Origin: Sulfurospirillum sp.
Lineage (GTDB): Bacteria > Campylobacterota > Campylobacteria > Campylobacterales > Sulfurospirillaceae
DNA: 64,000 nt
Assembly: GCA_016744795.1 (NCBI GenBank)
Contig: JADGDR010000001.1
Location: 1-64,000, forward strand
Direction: 5' to 3'
Below, piece after piece: positions 3,183 through 63,991 of the stretch (the first letter of the stretch is position 1; every line of letters starts with the position of its first letter). The position numbers were made by a program, and so were the translations under genes. The notes under the pieces are model-generated. The model was not told the origin of the DNA and did no database searches. It was given only the letters and a program-made list of their open reading frames with translations.

Positions 3183-4463
3183 TTACTGAACAACAAATAC
3201 AATTAAACTAATTGTTGCTAAAAAGATTATACCTAGATTGATGTCTTCAAACTCTCTTTTAAGTAATTTAATCATCAAATATGCAATAAAACCAAATGCC
3301 AACCCATTCGTGATAGAAAAAGTTAATGGCATCATAATAACTATAAAAAATGTAGCAACTGAAATAGCAATATCATCAAAGTTTATATGAGATAACTCAC
3401 TAAACATCAATACACCAACCATCACTAAAATTGGATAAATTGCATTTTCAGGAATAGCTGAAAAAAGAGGCATCATAAAAAGTGTAAGTACAAAAAACAG
3501 TCCCGTAGCAACGGCTGTAAGACCTGTACGACCACCCTCTTCAACTCCACTTGCACTCTCTACAAAACTTGTAGTTGTTGAAAGTCCTAAGAGTGAGCCA
3601 ATAACTGTTGCTCCTGCATCAGCTTCAAGTGTTTTTTGTAAATCTTTTCCTTCTTTTTCAAAAATCCCTGCACGATAACCAACACCAGCAAGAGTTCCAA
3701 GTGAATCAAACATATCTGTAATCAAAAATGTAATAATAACGGGAGCGAGTGCTAAAACAAATGCTGAAGGAATATCTAGTTCTAATGCAATCGGTCCAAT
3801 TGATGAAGGCATAGAGATAAATTCTGTAGGAGTTGGAGCCATTCCACTAATCCAAGCAATCATAGAAGTTAAAACAACTGCAATGATAAATCCACCTTTA
3901 ATTTTCCAAACATAAAGTCCAATAACAAGAGCCAAACCAACAACACCTAAAAGCACTTTTGGATCACTAAAATCACCAAGACCAACAAGTACCGCAGGAT
4001 TTGCCACAATCATACCCATACTTTTTAGTCCAATAAAAGCAATAAATGCACCGATACCAGCACTAATTGCACGTCTTAAATCATGAGGAACACTCTGCAT
4101 AATCCAAACTCTAAACTTGGTAAATGATAGCACCAAAAATAACATACCAGATATAAAAACAATACCGAGTGCACTTTGCCAAGGAATCTTCATACCAAGT
4201 ACTAAACCGAATGTAAAGTATGCATTAAGTCCCATACCAACGCTCATTGCAATTGGAGTATTTGCCCAAAGTCCATTTAATATTGTTGCAAAAATAGTGA
4301 TAAGAGCAGTTGCTGTAACCAAAGCCCCAAAATCCATGCCCGTTTTACTCATGATAATAGCGTTCACCGGAACGATATACATCATTGTCAAAAATGTTGT
4401 AAAACCTGCTCTAAATTCAGTTTTTACATCCGTGTTGTGTTCTTTAAGTTTAAATAAACCCAA
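3183..4463 (-). CDS. NCS2-family purine permease (AzgA-like)
   Basis: FRAGFTTFLTMMYIVPVNAIIMSKTGMDFGALVTATAL and DMFDSLGTLAGVGYRAG motifs. Confidence 0.92.
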   Translation of the reverse strand: MGLFKLKEHNTDVKTEFRAGFTTFLTMMYIVPVNAIIMSKTGMDFGALVTATALITIFATILNGLWANTPIAMSVGMGLNAYFTFGLVLGMKIPWQSALGIVFISGMLFLVLSFTKFRVWIMQSVPHDLRRAISAGIGAFIAFIGLKSMGMIVANPAVLVGLGDFSDPKVLLGVVGLALVIGLYVWKIKGGFIIAVVLTSMIAWISGMAPTPTEFISMPSSIGPIALELDIPSAFVLALAPVIITFLITDMFDSLGTLAGVGYRAGIFEKEGKDLQKTLEADAGATVIGSLLGLSTTTSFVESASGVEEGGRTGLTAVATGLFFVLTLFMMPLFSAIPENAIYPILVMVGVLMFSELSHINFDDIAISVATFFIVIMMPLTFSITNGLAFGFIAYLMIKLLKREFEDINLGIIFLATISLIVFVVQ

Positions 4464-50815: not shown

Positions 50816-50870
50816 AATTACATTGAAATCTTGTGTAAATGCTGTATTGATAGGGATTTGGTGAAAATAA

Positions 50871-50905
50871 TGGCGGACAGGGAGAGATTCGAACCCTTGG
50901 TCTAA
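50871..50905 (-). other. Truncated tRNA 3' end (probably tRNA-Ser), candidate phage attachment site
   Basis: Reverse complement ACCAAGGGTTCGAATCTCTCCCTGTCCGCCA: T-loop GTTCGAATC, G discriminator and CCA; upstream sequence does not form a tRNA. Confidence 0.75.
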
Positions 50906-51082: not shown

Positions 51083-52801
51083 ATGAAAAAAACTCTTTTA
51101 TCTGTATGTACTGCAATTGCCTTAGCAACCATTAGTCCTGCTGATATTGTAAGTCCTGCTACTGAACATTTACCAAAAGTAGAAAATCAATACTTTCAAA
51201 AAAGACTACCTACACATCATCAACTAAAATTTGCAAAAGATGTAGAACCAAGTATATTTGAAAATGCTACTCCTCTTTTTCATATAGAGTTATTAAATTT
51301 CATAAATGGTCCTGAACAATTCAAAGCAAGTGCTGTTTTTCGTGGTGCTGCCAAATCCACTCTTTTAAATAAAATTTTAATTATCAATCGTATTCATTTC
51401 GAATATGAACCATTTACAATGATTGTTTCTTCTGATAAAGAAAAAGCTCAAAGCTTTCTCGGAGATATAAAATCGCTTGTAGAAAAAGCTCAAGAAAAAG
51501 GTTATGCACTTTCTAAAGGTGATGTATGGACAAAATCTAAAATTGAAGTAGTAGTAAATGCTGGGCTAGTTGATAAAAATGGTAAATCTATTGAACATCG
51601 ATGTTGTGTAGCAGCTTTCGGTGCTGGACAAGATCCTCGTGGTTACACTTATAAAAATATTCGTCCTACTCTTATAATTGCCGATGACTTAGAATCAAAA
51701 AATGGTCAATATGCAATAGCAAATAAAGATAACCGTCAAAAACTTCGTAGATGGTTTTATGCTGATCTTATGCCCTCACTTCATCCTTTACGTGGACAAA
51801 TGATTATTATTGGAACAATCTTACATGCTGATAGTATTCTCAACAATATCATTATGGAAAAGGAAGAAGAACTTTTAAAAGCAGAAAATGGTGAGGAAGA
51901 AGAAAGTGAGTGGTTAACTCATAAAAGTGAATGGCATACAAAAGTTATTCCTATTATGCAAAATGGTAAAGCGATGTGGAAGTCACGTTTTCCAATTAAA
52001 AAAATTCGTGATTTAAAAGGTAGATTGTCTCGTATAGGATTGGTTAATGAATTTTATCAAGAGTATATGTGTAAAGCAATGGCTCCTGAAAAGCAATTAT
52101 TTAAGCGCGAAAACTTTAATTACTTTTCGCATCTACGATACAAAACAACTCCAGCTCCTAAGATAGTTGTAAAAGATGCTTTATCACAAGGAATTATAGA
52201 AGCAGCACAACCTACTCATATTGTTAAAAAAGATGGTACAGAAGTTCCTCTATCAGAATGTCAAATTTACACTACAATGGATCTTGCTTCTTATGATGGT
52301 GCAGATAGATCAGCAATCTTGACTTTTGCGATTGATAGAAGAAATGATGTATTTCTCATAGATATTTCCGCAGGACACTGGACTCCTTTTGAAAAAGCAT
52401 TACATGCAACAAGAGTTCAAGTCATGTTCAATCCAACTCGCTTTGGTATAGAAAAAGCTTCAGCACAAAATGACTTTTTTTATACTATAGATGTTGTACA
52501 AAAAGATACTGGTGTACATATACCAGTTGAACCATTATCACATCATAGTCGTGCTAAAAATGTACGAATAAGCAATATGCACGGATTATTCATTACAGGA
52601 AGAATATATTTTAACCAAAAACAAGCTGCTACTACAGAACTAGAATCTGAGCTACTTTCTTTTGATCCTGAGGTTGAATCTAAACATGATGACATAATGG
52701 ATGCGATGGCATATATACAAGAATTTATTGCTACTAAAACTTTTGATGATATTGTGGATGAAGAGGATGAAGAAGAATACATTGATGACGAATGGGCATA
52801 A
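51083..52801 (+). CDS. Phage terminase large subunit-like protein
   Basis: Walker A-like FRGAAKSTLL, Walker B LIIADDLES, nuclease domain YTTMDLASYDGADRSAI...DVFLIDISAGHWTP, C-terminal KHDDIMDAMAY. Confidence 0.88.
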   Translation: MKKTLLSVCTAIALATISPADIVSPATEHLPKVENQYFQKRLPTHHQLKFAKDVEPSIFENATPLFHIELLNFINGPEQFKASAVFRGAAKSTLLNKILIINRIHFEYEPFTMIVSSDKEKAQSFLGDIKSLVEKAQEKGYALSKGDVWTKSKIEVVVNAGLVDKNGKSIEHRCCVAAFGAGQDPRGYTYKNIRPTLIIADDLESKNGQYAIANKDNRQKLRRWFYADLMPSLHPLRGQMIIIGTILHADSILNNIIMEKEEELLKAENGEEEESEWLTHKSEWHTKVIPIMQNGKAMWKSRFPIKKIRDLKGRLSRIGLVNEFYQEYMCKAMAPEKQLFKRENFNYFSHLRYKTTPAPKIVVKDALSQGIIEAAQPTHIVKKDGTEVPLSECQIYTTMDLASYDGADRSAILTFAIDRRNDVFLIDISAGHWTPFEKALHATRVQVMFNPTRFGIEKASAQNDFFYTIDVVQKDTGVHIPVEPLSHHSRAKNVRISNMHGLFITGRIYFNQKQAATTELESELLSFDPEVESKHDDIMDAMAYIQEFIATKTFDDIVDEEDEEEYIDDEWA

Positions 52802-54022: not shown

Positions 54023-54045
54023 AGAAGGGACTTCAACCCCTTCTC
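54023..54045 (-). terminator. Terminator-like hairpin of the minus-strand phage operon
   Basis: AGAAGGG-ACTTCAAC-CCCTTCT at the 3' end of the 856-aa gene. Confidence 0.5.
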
Positions 54046-56615
54046 TAAAACTTATCCAATCTTAAACCTACAGTTCTGCCTACTGATTTTACTTTGCCAA
54101 TATCTTTATTGTATTTAGTATCAGCTTTACGTCGTTGCATAGTATCATCGCCTGCAGCACCTCGTTCGTATTTTCGTGTGTTTTTTACTGCACGTGCTTT
54201 TGATATAACTTCTTTTTTCTCATTAAATCGTCTTACACCAGCTCCACGAATCAGCATTTCAGAATAACTCATATCTTCATCATAGTAGTTCTTTGGATTA
54301 TTTAACCCAGTAGCTTTTCCTACCACTCTTTGACCATAACGACCAAAAGTTATCGGAGGTAAATAGTTTTTAGCCATTTCTAGTACACGTTTAGATATTT
54401 TCATACTAGTAGAATCATATTTACCATCTATGTTATATCCGAGCGGAGTTTTTCCACCTAGCATATTGATACCACCACCGATAAAACCACCACCAAACTC
54501 TAAAGTATCAAAACCATCAAAACGCATACCTGGAACAAGTCTTCCTGTATTGAGACACCAACCACCGCCAAGCTGTACCCAACTCTTTACGCCAAAGGCA
54601 TTAGGAAACATTTCACTTGCTGCCCATTTAGGTTTATACATGTTTTCTTTTTCATTATCACCAAGCCAAGCACTAGCACCTGCTCCCATCATTGCTCCTT
54701 GCATAAGAGTAAAACGTAAAGGATGTTTTGCTATGGCTTTAACCACCATAGGAGTCGCTTTGTATGAGTAATGAATAAAAGGCATTAACCCTATTTTGTC
54801 CAAAATTCTAACTGCACCAGGAAGAGGTGAAGTATAATCCACATAAGCTTCTTGTGAAATTTTAAAAGCTTGTTTTTCATCCATTCCACTCTCTAAGTGT
54901 TTATAAAATGAAGCTATTTTAAATATTTTATCTTCCCAATCATATAAGTGTCTAGCAGTATCTCCAAGTTTAGATCCTTTTGAAAAATAAGCATTTTTCA
55001 AGATACTCATGACAACTGGTTCTTTTTTAAGATCAAATGGTTCAATTTTTTCCATCTCTCCAAGATACGAATTAAGTCCATATTTGTTTGCTCTTTTTAC
55101 AAGTGCATCAAACTTTCTTCTGTCAGTAGCTGCCATATGTAAAACTTTAGTTAAAGCAGTCATATCTCCATGTAAAAAAGACAACATTACATTTGATCCT
55201 ACATTATAAAGATGAGTAAAAGGATTTTTAACAGTAACATTGACTTTTATATGATCTATCAATGGATACCAAATTTGTTCTAGAGCTCCCATATTTTCTT
55301 TTACAAGCCCTGCACCTTTAACTGCATTAGCTACATCTTCAGGTACATACTTACCGGCAAGTGCACCATATTTCTTTATACCACCACCTGCAGTCTCGTC
55401 ACTCATACGAACATATCCAGCAAGCTCAACATCACTTGCAAACTGATCTGCTACATTTTTAAGAGTATTTGCTTTTAGAAGTTGTACTCTTTGTTCTGCT
55501 AAAGTCTTAGGTATAACAAAGTTTGCATCTTCAATCATACCTAGAGCGATTCTCTCATCATGAGTTAAATTTTTACGTTTTCTAAAGCGTTCGTCAAAGT
55601 ACATCTTCTTTATAACACCACCTTCATTTAAATGATCCTCATAATATCTTTTTAGATAATCTTTGATTTTATGCTTTTCATTTAACGCTCCAGCCTTTAC
55701 AAGAGCATCTGCATTTGTATCGATGATATCTCTCATTCTATTGTATGTTTCTCTTAGATTACCAGGTAATGTAAAAGCATCCATATCACCACTCAAAGCT
55801 TTATGTAGTAGAGTTGATTGTGAAGGAGATAAGTTAGAGTCTAAAAAGCTTTTTATTTGTCCTGCTTGCTCATGTATTTGTGACATACCTATGCGAAAGT
55901 CATGAGTGATTTCACCTATTTGTTTAGTCATATCACTTACAGTCAATAATCTATAACCACTTTTTTTTGATTGAAGTTCATCTACCTTTTTAATAGCATT
56001 ACCAAAATGGTCAACTCCTTTTTCTAAGAAGTTTTGTGGTATACTACTTTTATTGAGCGACGAAACGTTTTGGACGTTTAAGCGGGGGGCAGGTAACCAA
56101 TCGTATCCTGATGCATCTGGCGTCGTCGCCTTTGTCTTATACATTGTGGTTGGTACTAATTCTTTGTGTTTATTTCTAACTTCTTCAATAACATATATAG
56201 TATCCTCATACTTTTTCATATATATTATCGCATCTCTACCTATCTTTGTTTTATGACTTTTTGCAATCTTGTCATAATTGGTTACTATGTCATCATAAAA
56301 TAAAAAATCATCTTCAGTTATATGTATCTGTCCTCTTAACTTCTCTTTTTGAGTAGCATGTTTTTTAAATATATGTTTTACTGCATAATTATCTATTTTT
56401 CTTTTATATCCTGTTAAATCAAACCCCATCTTATCTTTTACAAATGAAATGAAAGTTTTATCAGGAGCCTTTACATATATCTCTTTTTTGTCATTACCCT
56501 TTAATCTTTTAACTTGATTAACAAACTCTTTGATTTTTGCACCACTATCAATAACATTAGATAAAACCTTTTTCTGTTTTCCTAAACCTTTTTTACCATG
56601 ACAATCCATTAACAT
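54045..56615 (-). CDS. Large phage protein: possible PBECR-like nuclease N-terminus plus long helical polyvalent-associated region
   Basis: N-terminal ~170 aa ...NYAVKHIFKKHA...RGQIHITEDDFLFYDDIVTNYDKI...AIIYMKKYEDTIYVIEEVRNKHKELVPTTMYK resembles PBECR-type domains; helical, glycine-rich C-terminus. Confidence 0.6.
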   Translation of the reverse strand: MLMDCHGKKGLGKQKKVLSNVIDSGAKIKEFVNQVKRLKGNDKKEIYVKAPDKTFISFVKDKMGFDLTGYKRKIDNYAVKHIFKKHATQKEKLRGQIHITEDDFLFYDDIVTNYDKIAKSHKTKIGRDAIIYMKKYEDTIYVIEEVRNKHKELVPTTMYKTKATTPDASGYDWLPAPRLNVQNVSSLNKSSIPQNFLEKGVDHFGNAIKKVDELQSKKSGYRLLTVSDMTKQIGEITHDFRIGMSQIHEQAGQIKSFLDSNLSPSQSTLLHKALSGDMDAFTLPGNLRETYNRMRDIIDTNADALVKAGALNEKHKIKDYLKRYYEDHLNEGGVIKKMYFDERFRKRKNLTHDERIALGMIEDANFVIPKTLAEQRVQLLKANTLKNVADQFASDVELAGYVRMSDETAGGGIKKYGALAGKYVPEDVANAVKGAGLVKENMGALEQIWYPLIDHIKVNVTVKNPFTHLYNVGSNVMLSFLHGDMTALTKVLHMAATDRRKFDALVKRANKYGLNSYLGEMEKIEPFDLKKEPVVMSILKNAYFSKGSKLGDTARHLYDWEDKIFKIASFYKHLESGMDEKQAFKISQEAYVDYTSPLPGAVRILDKIGLMPFIHYSYKATPMVVKAIAKHPLRFTLMQGAMMGAGASAWLGDNEKENMYKPKWAASEMFPNAFGVKSWVQLGGGWCLNTGRLVPGMRFDGFDTLEFGGGFIGGGINMLGGKTPLGYNIDGKYDSTSMKISKRVLEMAKNYLPPITFGRYGQRVVGKATGLNNPKNYYDEDMSYSEMLIRGAGVRRFNEKKEVISKARAVKNTRKYERGAAGDDTMQRRKADTKYNKDIGKVKSVGRTVGLRLDKF

Positions 56616-59600
56616 GCCTCCTGTTCAAGTTCTGTTTTTATATGACCTTCATTGTTTACATGTAAAGACTCAAAACTTTCTAAACGACTGTGTGCATCCA
56701 CAATATCTTTACCATTTTCTTCTATGTGTTTTTCAGTTTTTACAATAGCCTCATCGTATGCTTTTAATTTTTTTTGTTTAGCTGAAATCATTTTTTCTAT
56801 ATTTGCTCTAGCGTTTGGTAGCTTAGTATCATAATCCACCTGCAGCTGATTTTGTTTAGCAGTATCTTTTGTTTTAATTATCTTTTCTAAAAGCTCTCCT
56901 AGGTATTTATTTGGTCTATCACTCTTAGCTCTATCTTTTAAGCTATTTATCTCACCATGTGTCAATTCAACTGAGCGTTCTAGTGATTTTTTTCTACTTT
57001 TAAGGAAATGTGATTCTTCTTGAACTGCAGTAAATTCATCTTCTAAACGTCCATACTCAATATTCAATTCCAATTTACGCCTCTGTAAAGGATCCTTTTC
57101 CATTTGAAGCATAAACTCTTCTTCACTTGGCATAGAATTACCCTCATCTGCTATCTCTATACGGTCTTTTACATCTGCATCCCAAAGAGCTTCATTCCAT
57201 CCTCTTTTTTTTGTAACAGTTCTATACATTAGCTCATCAAAAGTACCAGCTTGAAAATAGTAATGCGTATCTACTAAATCATTTTCATTACCATTTCTAA
57301 CACCTCGTCCATTACGTTGATCAATCTCTGCTTGAGTCCAAGGAATATCTGCATGATGTATGTCTCTAGTAAACTTTTGTGTATTCATGGCTTCACCAGC
57401 CCCTTTAGTAGTTCCTATGATAACTTTTACGCTCCCTGCATCATAAGCTTCAACAATAGCATCTTTCATCTCTATACCACGTCTACCACTAGCACTTCTT
57501 ATCTCTTTACCTGTACTAGGATTTGTTATCTCTTTACCCGATATGATAGCTATCTGTTTTGCATCAAAACCATTAGCCATAAGTTTGTCTTTTATCTCTT
57601 GGTGAAGGTTTTTTTCTAAAGTTGCAGGGAAAAACTCATCATCAAGTTCACGTCCTTTTTGTTGCTCATGCCCAGCATTATCTAAAAAGATAATTTGTCC
57701 GGCACGTTTGGTTTCTTTTCTACGATTTAAAACTTTTTCAACTATTGCCTCAACTTTATGATTTTGGGGAGTAGGATTTATAAAGTCATTTACTCCTCCT
57801 CTTTGATATGCTCTTGGATCAGTACTAGCACTTACACCTTCACTATATATCCCCATAGTCTTATTTCTTTTAGTAGCATCACTTTTAGCTTCTAATATTC
57901 TTTTTTTTATATCAGAAAACACTAATACACTCTCATCACTAGCATCTACATAATGAGTATTTACTTTTTCATCAGGGAGTTCTATAATGCCTCTTTTTTT
58001 AAACTCACTCATAGAGATACGCTCTACATATCTATCCATGATGCTGCGAAGTTCATAAGCATTTTTAATATGAGTTAATCCAACTTGCGGTTCACCTCTT
58101 TTATCTATCAATACTCCAAATTCAAAATAACGATTAGCAAAATCCCTATCAGAGTAGATTCCATACTCATCGAAAATCTTATTGTCCAGGTGCTTTAACA
58201 TCGTGTATATTTCCATAGGTTTATTAGGAGTTGGAGTAGCATCTAACATAAAAACATTACGACCATTGTTCTTTTCACTTATATATCTTGTCTTAAAACG
58301 AAAATCATACGCTTTAGCACTATCTAAAGATACAGAGCCTTTCTCCGTGATATTTAACCCAAAAGCTTTACCAAGTTTAAATTGCACTAGTTTTGAGTGT
58401 ACACCTACGTTTTTAAATGCCCTGGCTTCATCAGCAAAAATTGCATCAATCCCTAGCTTATCTATAGTGATACGCTTATCTTTATTATTTCTTCTTAGAA
58501 CTTCTTTGTACTTTTTTATCTTCTCTTGTTGAAGAGCAAGTGCACGTCCTTTTAGATTCTCTGTTTTTAGGTTTTCACTAAAGAGCTCATCAACATATCT
58601 CATTTGATCTTTCCACGGAAGTTGTAACTCTTTAAAACCTTCTTGACTTATCAAAACATAATCAGCTTCAGCATTTCCTAACTCATACAACTTTTTAGAT
58701 CTAGTTTTCTTTTCAAGATTAAAAAGGTTTATGATCTTAGCATCAGGAAAAACACTCTTTATCTCTTTGGACCAATTAATCAATACTTTACTAGGAACTA
58801 CAAAAAGTGGTTTTTGTAAAACACCTCTCTTTTTAAGTGCTCTAGCCAAAATTGCCCCAGCCAATGTTTTTCCACCACCAACATCATGAGCATTGATATT
58901 TTTACCCTCATATAGTGCACGTGTTATCCACTCTATTTGATTTTCACGAAGTTTTATATCATGAGGAAGCTCGTCAAGAACCTCTTGTATCATATAACTT
59001 GCTTTTTTATAATCAGGACTTACATAACCATTAAATTTGCGATTATAGACATCTTCTATACGTAAACGTAATTTATCATTAGTGAGTACTTTTTCTTTTA
59101 TTTGATTAAGTACCTCTTGAACTTCTTCTTGTGCAGTTCTTAATCTTCTTCTGTACGCTGTAAGAGATTCACCTTTTACTGCTTTTATAAGAGTTTTGTT
59201 ATTTAGGTAGTTATCATACACTTCTCCAAATTCACTCTTCCACTCATGTATCTTTCTCTCACCCTTATCTAAGATACGTTCAACTTTTTTTAAAGAATAT
59301 ACATGTAAATCATTTTCAAGTATCCAAGGCTCATCACCACGTAAACTTATCTCTTCTATACTCTTTTTCTCAGGCAATATATCCTCAAGTAAAGCTCTTT
59401 GCTTTTCTAGTTTTGTTGAGGCGATACCATCTTCTTTATATGTATCACTTAGTTTATTAAGATCATCAAGTTTGCCATATAAATTTCCACTATAGTAAAG
59501 TATGTCATTTTGAACTTTTCCTTTACCATGTATGCTATATCCACTTTCTAAAGCATTATAAAAATCTCCTTCTTTTATATATGTACCCTTACTAGCAATA

Positions 59601-62600
59601 TCTATTTCACCTTTATGATTTTCATGATAAAGCATACGGGTTGATATTGGAGCATTGTGAGAAACTGCTACTTTTCCACTTCCCTCAAATTTTGTTTTTT
59701 TATCAAAAATTTGTGCAGGTTTAAAATCCTTATCAAAATAACTACCAAATTCATATAAACTTTCACGCTCTCCTATGTCTTCAAAAAGCCTGCCTAGTTT
59801 TTTATCTTTATAAGGATGTACTCCAAATTCACTTTTGTATCGTTTTATTAAAGATTTACCAACTAGATCTTGTTTTTCTCCAAGTTGCAGTATCTCTGAA
59901 AGTAAAGATATCTTTTTGCCCTCATCTGTGCTGCTTATATCTTTATATACTTTTGCACCACCATCTATGTCTGAAAACTCTACTTCATCTTTTACAACTC
60001 TAACACTTCCATCTTCTATAAGAAGTCCTCTCTCATCTAAACCATGAGTTTCATATCCATGTTCATCTGCCCAGTTCCAAAACTCATGAGAATCTTCTGG
60101 TGCTTTTTGCATATGTTCAATTTTTTCTTTTACATGTAAAGATTCTTTGGGATTACGATAGTCAAGTTTTATTTTAGAGTAGTCAGCTTCACCACTTACC
60201 TGGTATGCTTTGCCTCCAAACTGTTTATTAACGCCCACTTCCATATCACCAAGTATCTTTTGGGGATAAGCTTGATAGTACTCATTTAGATAAATACCAT
60301 CTCTTGTTTTAGTTGAGCGCATAAAAGATTGATTTTTAGTTAGTTGTCCTGGTGTAGCTTCAACACCCTCTTTTCTTTTTTGTAAAAAGATTACATCAAC
60401 TCCAACATCTGTGTGAGCATTTTTACTAAATGTACCTTCAGGTAAACGATATGCCCCTATGATATCTGCTTTGCTCATTAACTCTTTACGTATTTTATTA
60501 CTGGCTTTATCCATAGTTCCACGACTTGTTACAAAAGTAACAACACCATCATCTTTGACCTTATCTACTGCACTTACGAAATAATAATCATGTAAAGCTT
60601 TTATATCAGGACGTACATCCAAGCTACCTTTCCCACGTGTTTCTATAAAAGGCACATTTGAAATTACCAGATCATACCCATCACCTTTAAACTGTTCAAA
60701 ACTTGTATTATAATGTTTCGCATCAGGATAAAGTCTACGGTTTATCTCATAAGCTTTTGGATCAGTATCTATAGTGGTCCATTTTGTTTTTGGACTATGT
60801 CCTACAAAGTTACCACTACCCACTGCTGGCTCTAATGCTTTCTTGAACTTAACTCCAGCACGATTAAGTGCATCATATATGCCTCTTACAGTTTTATATG
60901 GGGTATAGTGTTCACTAAGACTTCCATATGTTCCTTTTTCAATTCCACCTACACCTGTATATTTACGAAGAACTTCTTTATCTTCAGGTGTTACTTTTGA
61001 GATATCTTTTTTTATGATCTCATCTACTTGATTATTTATCTCTTTTCGTTTTGCTTTTGTAAGTTCTATTGGTTCATATTTGTGTAGATCTACATTTTCA
61101 TGTGTATTCTTTTTTTCCTTCTCAAAATCATCCCTATTCGGTCTATCATCCAATTTGGTTTCATCTTCAAAAGTCTCTTTTTCATCGCTTTTTCGCGACG
61201 TGTGAAGTTCATCTTTACCATTTTCTACACCTTTTTCATTCCCAAGATTTGACTCATCTTCTTTGCGTACCACTGTGTCGCTTCTATCTGAGGGAAGCTC
61301 ATCATTATTGCCCCTAGAGGTTTGCTGTCCTCCCAGCTCTCCATCTTTTTTGGATAGTTCGCCCTTTTTGATATCATCAACAAGATTTTGTCCATCATCG
61401 AGTAAGGCTCGTTTAGCATTTGCATCGCTTGAGCCTGGATGCTCTTGATTGGAGACTTCATCGCTTCTTCCCCCTTGTGGACCATCTCCGTTAAGCTCAT
61501 CCTTTCTTGGTGGTTTAGTTTCTCCACTAGGAAGTTCGACATCTCCTGAACTGTCTTGATTTGCATGGAACTCTTCTCCTTTTTTGACAACATAATCAGA
61601 TCCTTTTATAGTTATTTTTTCATTAAAATATTGTTTCGCTATTGAAACATCTTGGTTTGCATACGCTTGAACGAATACTTGACTTTGTTCTTCTCCAAAA
61701 CCAGCTTTTTGCAAACTTTGTAAATATTCATCAGGGGTACGAAGTGGATTTATGATGTCTTGTTCTATGGCATGCATGACATTCCATCCAGCTAATCTGT
61801 TTTCTACTGGTGCTCCATCATTTACCCAGTTAGTTATTAAAACTTCTTCATGACTTGGTTTAAGTTTTGCATTTATCACATTTTTTAACTGTGTTGGTAA
61901 AATACTTGGATTTGTTTTTATCTCTGATTGAGTAGTTTTTAACATTTCGTTATATCTAAGAGCAGAATCATCACCACTTTTTGATATCTGTTCACGAATA
62001 GTGCTTAACTCTGCTTCCATAAAACTAAGACTAGGTTCTCTTTTTTGTATATTTTCAAGAGTATTTATGTAGCGAGTAAACTCATTTAGATCAGCATAAC
62101 GATCTTTATCTATAACACTTTTTGTTTTACCTTCATTTAGGTCACTATATACTTGTTCACGAACTGCTTTAGATTCACCATGCATTACTTCATTAAAAAA
62201 ACTGTTAAAACTGCCATGAGACTCTTTTACATTTATGTTGACATCTTCTCCACCATCAACACGCTGCATTATTTCTAATCCATCGAATAGTTCATTAGAG
62301 TTTATATCTTCTAAGTCTTTTGAGTTTTGGGCTGAGGCTATTCGTCTGTCTTTTTGTTTACCCCAAAGTTTAGCTAAACCTTTCACCCCTTGATGTAATC
62401 CCTCACCTATAACAGGAGTTGCTATAGCACCTATCAAAGCACCCTCTACAACATTTCGCTCACCACCATAAGCTGCAGTTGCACCTGAAGCTGCACCAGT
62501 AACAGCTAAACCAATCACACGTTTTGCAATACTAGCAGCTCCTAACGGAATTATATTGATAGGATCAACAAAACCACCAACCATCTCACCAGAGAAACTT

Positions 62601-62992
62601 GCTACATCCCAAGACTCAGGATTTACTTTTTTATAATTACCCTGGTACTCTTCTAAACGTTTTATCCAAGTACCCATTTTTTGCACTGGAGCAGAGTATT
62701 TTCCATTAGTAGCACTAGCACGGTGAGGATCTAAAAAGTTTGTTACATCTTCAGCTATTTTCATCGTACCGCGTACGCCTTCTAAAGCTCCTTTTGTAAT
62801 ACCTCCACTAAAACGAATCAAATCATTATCCATTTTTTTAGCATCACTTTTAACATTGTTTGTTTGAGTTTGAATTTCTTCTTTTTGAGAGGTATAAAGA
62901 TTTTTTGCCACTGCTCTAATGTGGCTAGAATTATAACCCTTTTGCTTTAAGGCATTAATCGCATCATTACCAAGTAGTTCTCTTGGGGTCAT
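56609..62992 (-). CDS. DarB-like giant phage protein: N6-adenine methyltransferase + SF2/SNF2-type helicase
   Basis: MTase motifs ALEPAVGSGNFVG and VISNVPF; helicase motifs NINAHDVGGGKTLAGAILA, IFADEARAFKN, VFMLDATPTPN, DQRNGRGVRNG; N-terminal glycine-zipper-like segment. Confidence 0.88.
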   Translation of the reverse strand: MTPRELLGNDAINALKQKGYNSSHIRAVAKNLYTSQKEEIQTQTNNVKSDAKKMDNDLIRFSGGITKGALEGVRGTMKIAEDVTNFLDPHRASATNGKYSAPVQKMGTWIKRLEEYQGNYKKVNPESWDVASFSGEMVGGFVDPINIIPLGAASIAKRVIGLAVTGAASGATAAYGGERNVVEGALIGAIATPVIGEGLHQGVKGLAKLWGKQKDRRIASAQNSKDLEDINSNELFDGLEIMQRVDGGEDVNINVKESHGSFNSFFNEVMHGESKAVREQVYSDLNEGKTKSVIDKDRYADLNEFTRYINTLENIQKREPSLSFMEAELSTIREQISKSGDDSALRYNEMLKTTQSEIKTNPSILPTQLKNVINAKLKPSHEEVLITNWVNDGAPVENRLAGWNVMHAIEQDIINPLRTPDEYLQSLQKAGFGEEQSQVFVQAYANQDVSIAKQYFNEKITIKGSDYVVKKGEEFHANQDSSGDVELPSGETKPPRKDELNGDGPQGGRSDEVSNQEHPGSSDANAKRALLDDGQNLVDDIKKGELSKKDGELGGQQTSRGNNDELPSDRSDTVVRKEDESNLGNEKGVENGKDELHTSRKSDEKETFEDETKLDDRPNRDDFEKEKKNTHENVDLHKYEPIELTKAKRKEINNQVDEIIKKDISKVTPEDKEVLRKYTGVGGIEKGTYGSLSEHYTPYKTVRGIYDALNRAGVKFKKALEPAVGSGNFVGHSPKTKWTTIDTDPKAYEINRRLYPDAKHYNTSFEQFKGDGYDLVISNVPFIETRGKGSLDVRPDIKALHDYYFVSAVDKVKDDGVVTFVTSRGTMDKASNKIRKELMSKADIIGAYRLPEGTFSKNAHTDVGVDVIFLQKRKEGVEATPGQLTKNQSFMRSTKTRDGIYLNEYYQAYPQKILGDMEVGVNKQFGGKAYQVSGEADYSKIKLDYRNPKESLHVKEKIEHMQKAPEDSHEFWNWADEHGYETHGLDERGLLIEDGSVRVVKDEVEFSDIDGGAKVYKDISSTDEGKKISLLSEILQLGEKQDLVGKSLIKRYKSEFGVHPYKDKKLGRLFEDIGERESLYEFGSYFDKDFKPAQIFDKKTKFEGSGKVAVSHNAPISTRMLYHENHKGEIDIASKGTYIKEGDFYNALESGYSIHGKGKVQNDILYYSGNLYGKLDDLNKLSDTYKEDGIASTKLEKQRALLEDILPEKKSIEEISLRGDEPWILENDLHVYSLKKVERILDKGERKIHEWKSEFGEVYDNYLNNKTLIKAVKGESLTAYRRRLRTAQEEVQEVLNQIKEKVLTNDKLRLRIEDVYNRKFNGYVSPDYKKASYMIQEVLDELPHDIKLRENQIEWITRALYEGKNINAHDVGGGKTLAGAILARALKKRGVLQKPLFVVPSKVLINWSKEIKSVFPDAKIINLFNLEKKTRSKKLYELGNAEADYVLISQEGFKELQLPWKDQMRYVDELFSENLKTENLKGRALALQQEKIKKYKEVLRRNNKDKRITIDKLGIDAIFADEARAFKNVGVHSKLVQFKLGKAFGLNITEKGSVSLDSAKAYDFRFKTRYISEKNNGRNVFMLDATPTPNKPMEIYTMLKHLDNKIFDEYGIYSDRDFANRYFEFGVLIDKRGEPQVGLTHIKNAYELRSIMDRYVERISMSEFKKRGIIELPDEKVNTHYVDASDESVLVFSDIKKRILEAKSDATKRNKTMGIYSEGVSASTDPRAYQRGGVNDFINPTPQNHKVEAIVEKVLNRRKETKRAGQIIFLDNAGHEQQKGRELDDEFFPATLEKNLHQEIKDKLMANGFDAKQIAIISGKEITNPSTGKEIRSASGRRGIEMKDAIVEAYDAGSVKVIIGTTKGAGEAMNTQKFTRDIHHADIPWTQAEIDQRNGRGVRNGNENDLVDTHYYFQAGTFDELMYRTVTKKRGWNEALWDADVKDRIEIADEGNSMPSEEEFMLQMEKDPLQRRKLELNIEYGRLEDEFTAVQEESHFLKSRKKSLERSVELTHGEINSLKDRAKSDRPNKYLGELLEKIIKTKDTAKQNQLQVDYDTKLPNARANIEKMISAKQKKLKAYDEAIVKTEKHIEENGKDIVDAHSRLESFESLHVNNEGHIKTELEQEAC

Positions 62993-63047: not shown

Positions 63048-63737
63048 TTATAATGGAGTATCTAAAGGCTCATCCCCATCACCTATTTGCTCTTTTTGCA
63101 TACTGTTTACATAATCTATAGGGGCATGAAACTTACCATCTTTTGAAATTTTAACCATGCCACTATCTGCATACTCTTCATAAAACTCTTTTCCAACTGA
63201 AACGTGGTTTTCAGGAACTTCACTTTTATCTTTTCCCCATTCAGTTTTGACTGTTCCAAGGTTTTTTTGAACTATTTTTCCATCAACTTCATAAGTAAGT
63301 ATCTTGTTGCCTTCAGGAGTTACTCTCGTATCAAGTTTTTTTATATCCTTGCCTTTTGGTAAAAGTTTATCTATTTGCTGTCCAAATTCATACACCTCAT
63401 TGTCATCTAACTTACTTGTAAACTTAGGATGAAGTTTGCGAAACAAAGAGATGCTAGCTCCTTTTCTCGTTGTTTCATCTGCTTTTTTATCACTAGCAAC
63501 TTCAACCAATCTATCATAATCCTTTTGCTTTAAATCAAAATTATCTTGAGTGAGTTTTAATTGTTTATTTTGTCTATCACTAGTGTTTTTATCTAGCTTT
63601 AATTTATCTTCATATTTGTTTGCCTCATCACCCAGTCTTCCTATATTTGCTACGCTCTTTCCTATTGCAGCGAAACCAAAACCAAGTCCTGCTTTTGGAC
63701 TATTTGCATTTACTGCTGGTAAATATCCTAACTTCAT
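63048..63737 (-). CDS. Putative phage virion/ejection-associated protein
   Basis: Same-strand operon member upstream of the DarB-like gene; glycine-rich N-terminus, coiled middle; no family recognised. Confidence 0.5.
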   Translation of the reverse strand: MKLGYLPAVNANSPKAGLGFGFAAIGKSVANIGRLGDEANKYEDKLKLDKNTSDRQNKQLKLTQDNFDLKQKDYDRLVEVASDKKADETTRKGASISLFRKLHPKFTSKLDDNEVYEFGQQIDKLLPKGKDIKKLDTRVTPEGNKILTYEVDGKIVQKNLGTVKTEWGKDKSEVPENHVSVGKEFYEEYADSGMVKISKDGKFHAPIDYVNSMQKEQIGDGDEPLDTPL

Positions 63738-63748
63738 AATCTTTTCTC

Positions 63749-63991
63749 CTATAAAACCAAATTATCTTTTTTCTTTTTAACAGTTCCAAAAACTGCGGCA
63801 CTTGCTGCATTAAAATTGGCTTGAGTTTTATCATGAGTTGCTCTTTGCTTTTTATAAATATCAATATTTATATCATTTGTTCTCTTAGCCTCTTTACCTT
63901 GCATATATGTACCATATGCCAACCCAGCTCCTGATGCTAAATTACCTACAACACCTATGTTTTTTGAGTTCTTTGTTATCCAATCCCACAT
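63749..63991 (-). CDS. Small putative internal virion protein
   Basis: 80 aa, NIGVVGNLASGAGLAYGTYMQGKEAKRTNDINIDIYKKQ pattern common in small phage structural/ejection proteins. Confidence 0.45.
   Translation of the reverse strand: MWDWITKNSKNIGVVGNLASGAGLAYGTYMQGKEAKRTNDINIDIYKKQRATHDKTQANFNAASAAVFGTVKKKKDNLVL

Follow-up and report, generated by a model that had tools for sequence, protein, structure and literature searches.

What is a DNA methyltransferase fused to a helicase doing in a late-gene cassette of a Campylobacterota prophage? The question is raised by one gene in the first 64,000 nucleotides (the window) of contig JADGDR010000001.1 from Sulfurospirillum sp. The gene occupies positions 56609–62992 of the minus strand and encodes a protein of 2127 residues. 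The product belongs to the known DarB-type anti-defence family and is not a new kind of system. From comparison with its relatives, it is probably ejected from the virion and carries a DarB-type payload; in this view it is a DNA-processing or anti-restriction protein whose payload can be exchanged. DarB was described nearly 40 years ago, and its mechanism is still undefined. A relative that is self-contained, lacking the other Dar proteins, and whose close relatives keep the catalytic motifs but vary in the middle region, would help to tell catalysis from packaging.

DarB-Type Catalytic Core

The first-pass annotation of this DNA had described a single reading frame of 2127 residues encoding a DarB-like methyltransferase–helicase. 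The frame is indeed open throughout from an ATG start, and its strand is now fixed as minus. There is a good ribosome-binding site, AAAGGAG, directly 5′ of the ATG. The frame overlaps the next open reading frame (ORF; 54045–56615) by 7 bp. A scan for promoters and terminators gave results no better than chance level.

The homology of the protein to P1 DarB (YP_006479.1) is near certain on sequence grounds. The phmmer comparison (5.7e-55) covers three colinear stretches, which are the methyltransferase (residues 649–874) and the N-terminal and C-terminal halves of the SNF2 module (1356–1719 and 1847–1968). The two proteins share three homologous modules, the order LPD36–methyltransferase–SNF2, the motif NVPF and a similar length. 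Among PHROGs, the protein matches "DarB-like antirestriction" (2.2e-111) and "DNA methyltransferase" (2.6e-146). The Pfam matches above the cut-off are SNF2-rel_dom (4.7e-11) and ResIII (4.3e-6), while Helicase_C (1.1e-3) stays below it.

A polyvalent methylase–helicase dyad has been defined by an N-terminal LPD36 domain with a GXGU motif, a TP motif, an adenine methyltransferase like that of EcoKI or TaqI, and an SNF2-class ATPase (Iyer et al. 2017, PMC5512222). All of these are found here. The LPD36-like helix domain (60917–61075, minus strand) contains GVGG at residues 680–683, and this GxGG is kept in relatives. The gamma-class N6-adenine methyltransferase domain (residues 693–940; 60173–60916, minus) carries YTP at 696–698, ALEPAVGSGNF at 719 (EPAVGSGNF at 721–729) and NVPF at 779–782. 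C-terminal of it lies a SWI2/SNF2-type translocase of superfamily 2 (residues 1345–1950; 57143–58960, minus) with motifs I, Ia, II, III, V and VI; DVGGGKT is at residue 1370, DEAR at 1521, ATP at 1585 and GRGVRNG at 1895. The SNF2-type helicase and the polyvalent-protein context that had been noted at first pass are both borne out by this match to the published dyad. The likeness extends to a PBECR neighbor and a phage late-gene context (PMC5512222).

The methyltransferase domain has no Pfam match, and a PDB profile search with this region gave no sequence match. A predicted model of residues 636–1330 (predicted local distance difference test, pLDDT, 73) matches HsdM, M.BseCI, M.TaqI and BsaXI among solved structures. 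Profile and structure searches had been proposed as a check on the DarB assignment, and the PHROGs, SNF2 and HsdM-like matches agree with it. The same annotation had recorded an N6-adenine methyltransferase with NVPF in place of NPPY/F. The methyltransferase motifs and fold stand, but the idea that NVPF is unusual at the catalytic site was rejected. When 14 homologues are aligned, P1 DarB itself reads GNVPFGG there, and all three close relatives also have NVPF, so it is not a deviation.

The viral relatives (contigs L063–L066) were found by alignment searches; a single-sequence search of the viral contigs gave nothing. Genome G181 has a full-length relative with 44% identity, and the protein of viral contig L063 equals it in length and match (G181/L063, 41–44%). 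Contig L065 shares residues 525–2123 at 47%, and a 5477-residue protein of contig L066 shares residues 554–2118 at 40%. The identity to these relatives differs by segment: it is 53–56% in the methyltransferase, 44–61% in the translocase, 34–37% in the middle region between the two and 21–25% in the linker that precedes the dyad. On alignment, the catalytic motifs are kept in four of the four close members, with DEAH for DEAR and TD for TP in L066. The faster-evolving middle region (residues 940–1250; 59243–60175, minus) may be the DNA-recognition part.

Towards the N-terminus L065 matches weakly and L066 practically not at all; in L066 the dyad stands with an unrelated N-terminus. Judged by these alignments, the dyad can follow N-termini of other kinds as well. 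In the L066 protein (L066:3042-19475) the dyad is in the middle and is accompanied by LPD23.

A Constant N-Terminal Module with Changing Payloads

Residues 1–470 (61583–62992, minus; the N-module) are common to PBECR- and ART-carrying proteins at the same locus, as seen by blastp, alignment and PHROG 342. Six further large Campylobacterota proteins, of 1203–1787 residues, begin with a homologous stretch (29–31% over ~460 residues, E 1e-40 to 3e-63). The six genomes fall in one other Campylobacterota family, and two of the loci are from Campylobacter concisus. The payloads behind the N-module in these relatives are PBECR1, PBECR2, ART-PolyVal and LPD23 domains. In six of the six loci the gene behind the giant one encodes a homologue of the core of the 856-residue protein that adjoins our gene (the companion; 42–45%), and a homologue of an 80-residue protein lies upstream. 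G181 is the exception in order, with the companion (52%) upstream of the giant gene. The N-module and the companion are thus found in six loci with other payloads; they stay while the payload changes.

At the level of profile searches, the N-module may resemble T7-gp16-type internal virion proteins. Residues 129–297 (1.1e-4) and the relative L054 (2.2e-9) hit PHROG 342, a family of internal virion proteins with an endolysin domain, but only two of eight members do so. The module belongs to PHROG 13543, an existing phage protein family without assigned function, and tblastn found it in none of 50,697 phage records. It contains a Gly-rich hydrophobic segment (residues 130–220; 62333–62605, minus), recognized by composition and hydropathy, with Kyte–Doolittle peaks near residues 147 and 181. 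The N-terminal region had been called glycine-zipper-like; the Gly-rich hydrophobic stretch is there, but Pfam gives no glycine-zipper match in the protein. The charged linker of about 150 residues seen at first pass corresponds to residues 470–640 (61073–61585, minus), with 27% D+E and 16% hydrophobic residues.

The companion (54045–56615, minus; 856 residues) consists of a predicted PBECR3 RNase (residues 59–164; PF18812, E 4.8e-19) and a conserved core (residues ~222–815; 42–52% in relatives). In L070 and L072 the core of the companion homologue is fused behind PBECR domains, just as PBECR3 precedes the core here. In five of seven members the core matches the extreme C-terminus (positions 3241–3365 of 3406) of the PHROG for virion RNA polymerase (vRNAP), the best value being 5.1e-12. 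For encapsidation, N4 vRNAP requires its C-terminal region (PMC5512222). A PDB profile search with the companion gave only marginal matches, the best of them to a tail protein (0.0067).

Two small genes complete the cassette. A 229-residue protein (63048–63737, minus) has homologues immediately 5′ of the giant gene, both in G181 (4e-9) and in G120 (9e-6). The 80-residue protein (63749–63991, minus) is small, Gly-rich and ejection-protein-like, with homologues in the same position in six loci; its match to PHROG 418, internal virion protein, is weak (0.029). The G181 protein in this position matches PHROG 8693, pilot protein for DNA ejection (0.0023).

Proposed Role and Alternatives

We propose that residues 1–470 and the 80-, 229- and 856-residue proteins form the particle-internal or ejection set of a temperate phage, and that the C-terminal 1,600 residues are cargo delivered along with the DNA. 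This cargo, a predicted N6-adenine methyltransferase coupled to an SNF2-type double-strand DNA translocase, would track along the incoming genome and shield it from host DNA defence, most plausibly type I restriction. A type I restriction–modification locus is present in the host. The companion would add a second effector, the PBECR3 RNase. The comparisons show homology, motifs, synteny and an exchange of payloads between modules; that the 2127-residue protein is packaged and injected, and that it methylates and protects DNA, we infer. The N-module, the companion and the payload exchange between loci appear to favour delivery in the virion. P1 DarB is itself a protein of the virion head, and its packaging signal is N-terminal (PMC9024508).

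Several observations weigh against this proposal. Searches with DarA, Hdf, DdrA, DdrB and Ulx gave no match among all prophage ORFs (phmmer with each, E<=1; DarB alone matches). Packaging therefore cannot go by the P1 route. Some of the matches to virion proteins are weak or confined to short segments, and the AlphaFold2 model of the N-module has a pLDDT of 46.5. The mechanism of P1 DarB is itself undefined, and the effect of plasmid-borne darB has been traced to Chi sites and not to the protein (PMC11109961).

The strongest alternative, which we hold to be unlikely but which deserves attention, is an ordinary phage methyltransferase–helicase. It would be made in the lysogen or late in infection and would modify the phage DNA before packaging, without being delivered itself. 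Every catalytic motif is intact, and plasmids commonly carry similar dyads (matches in 1977 of 72,556 records). However, the gene sits in a cassette whose neighbors and N-module resemble particle-internal proteins. In the relatives, moreover, the N-module carries non-DNA effectors (ART and PBECR RNases), which fits delivery and not DNA modification. Something similar to the dyad is encoded in 213 Campylobacter records of the plasmids collection.

We give rather less weight to a purely structural N-module and companion, in which the dyad is a passenger that mainly aids DNA entry, by pulling or remodeling the genome, and does not resist restriction. Genome entry can be driven by ejection proteins, as in T7, and double-strand DNA is the track for SNF2 translocases. 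Relatives in the same cassette nevertheless manage without the dyad, so it is not needed for entry, and the methyltransferase motifs are kept in all four close members. Action of the dyad on competitors, as superinfection exclusion or lysogen defence against other phages in the manner of the SNF2/methyltransferase systems DISARM and BREX, is improbable: the translocase scores against the DrmD and BrxHI models as SNF2 enzymes generally do, but the DISARM_DrmD score is 39.5 bits against a curated cut-off of 610, the BrxHI matches (PADLOC) span helicase segments only, no further defence component was recognized beside the gene, and the gene is positioned in a late-gene cassette.

Ejection of a DarB-type payload thus remains our preferred reading, and a broader one goes with it at roughly even odds. 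Campylobacterota phages may have a fixed delivery locus, with a constant gp16-like N-module and a companion that resembles the vRNAP C-terminus, and with swappable injected counter-defence effectors, as in polymorphic toxins. The effectors would be the DarB dyad, PBECR RNases and ADP-ribosyltransferases. If the N-module and companion are such a scaffold, payload exchange at one locus reveals the effectors that a phage group injects and can lead to unknown ones.

The known systems differ from this arrangement in several ways. P1 DarB has only ~46 residues, including the packaging signal, before the homologous region, whereas the N-terminal region here has ~640 residues and is partly common to other effectors. 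The other proteins of the P1 Dar system were not found in this prophage. Polyvalent proteins are generally without a toxin-like layout with a constant N-terminus (PMC5512222), whereas a constant N-module with a variable payload at one locus is seen here. The giant proteins of Bcep22-like phages, Lastavirus and VvAW1 also place the dyad in a particle-associated-looking protein beside virion or DNA-transfer proteins (about 24–25% identity), but they have 3,600–4,900 residues and some have a transglycosylase. The Helicobacter jhp1044 polyvalent proteins are likewise mosaic PBECR-bearing effectors of Campylobacterota prophages (PMC5512222). By description, they contain PBECR, DdrB-like ParB, RelA–SpoT and LPD3 domains, and no methylase–helicase.

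The TTTACATGTAAA Motif

In the window, TTTACATGTAAA is at positions 2157, 5147, 12807, 12834, 31184, 32635, 36638, 37388, 48735, 56655 and 60129. The last two (56655–56666 and 60129–60140) are perfect copies inside the DarB-like gene and had raised the question of a link with the methyltransferase. The copies are real, but we rejected the motif as a target or mirror of the methyltransferase. The genome has 310 copies, and the reversed control 4. Across the rest of the family the count ranges from 0 to 791 (reversed control, 0–4), and family genomes with 549–791 copies are without a DarB match. The relatives' Campylobacter loci that we examined contain 0 copies. At host density the prophage, with 6 copies, would be expected to have 8.3, and the 6.4-kb gene, with two, about 0.7. 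The motif is a feature of the host family that is shared by the prophage and is not part of the system. It is mostly intragenic and mostly in one frame (LHVK/LHVN), with single mismatches at outer positions only. It resembles a highly iterated palindrome (HIP1-like) or a signal for uptake or organization. A literature search for the string gave nothing relevant among the matches listed.

Prophage Context

The assignment to a Campylobacterota prophage made at first pass is confirmed. A 26-bp repeat at 50869–50894 (attL) corresponds to the 3′ end of tRNA-Ser(gct) and recurs exactly at C7:122407-122432, where the tRNA-Ser gene lies at 122409–122499. These repeats delimit a 71.6-kb tRNA-Ser prophage (C7:50869-122432), which by this evidence contains the gene. 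The terminase large subunit (51083–52801, plus strand; PHROG 38, 7e-63) is 54% identical to the terminase beside the G181 DarB-like cassette, and probably belongs to the same phage as the cassette. Its ORF opens with a signal-peptide-like stretch (MKKTLLSVCTAIALATISPA) that is not in the relatives; the start is possibly mis-set.

The prophage carries two terminases, two portal/adaptor proteins and two major head proteins. A 1.67-kb repeat of the lysis cassette (98.8%) at about 65.6–67.3 and 103.6–105.3 kb brackets about 38 kb. Outside this block the gene order is that of the relatives' phages, so a second phage has apparently entered the first at its lysis region. There seem to be two phages in one tRNA-Ser prophage, either by recombination (nested insertion) or by misassembly.

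The second phage encodes a polyvalent-like protein of 1617 residues (L003:7025-11878, minus) with a glycine-zipper-like N-terminus below the Pfam cut-off. This gene adjoins a 428-residue gene and a portal gene, and a stretch of the 5477-residue L066 protein resembles the C-terminus of its product. The second phage also encodes a cytosine-type DNA methyltransferase of 481 residues at L002:12228-13673 (minus). ParA/ParB-like genes and a small tyrosine recombinase gene lie nearby (L003) and could suggest a phage–plasmid lifestyle.

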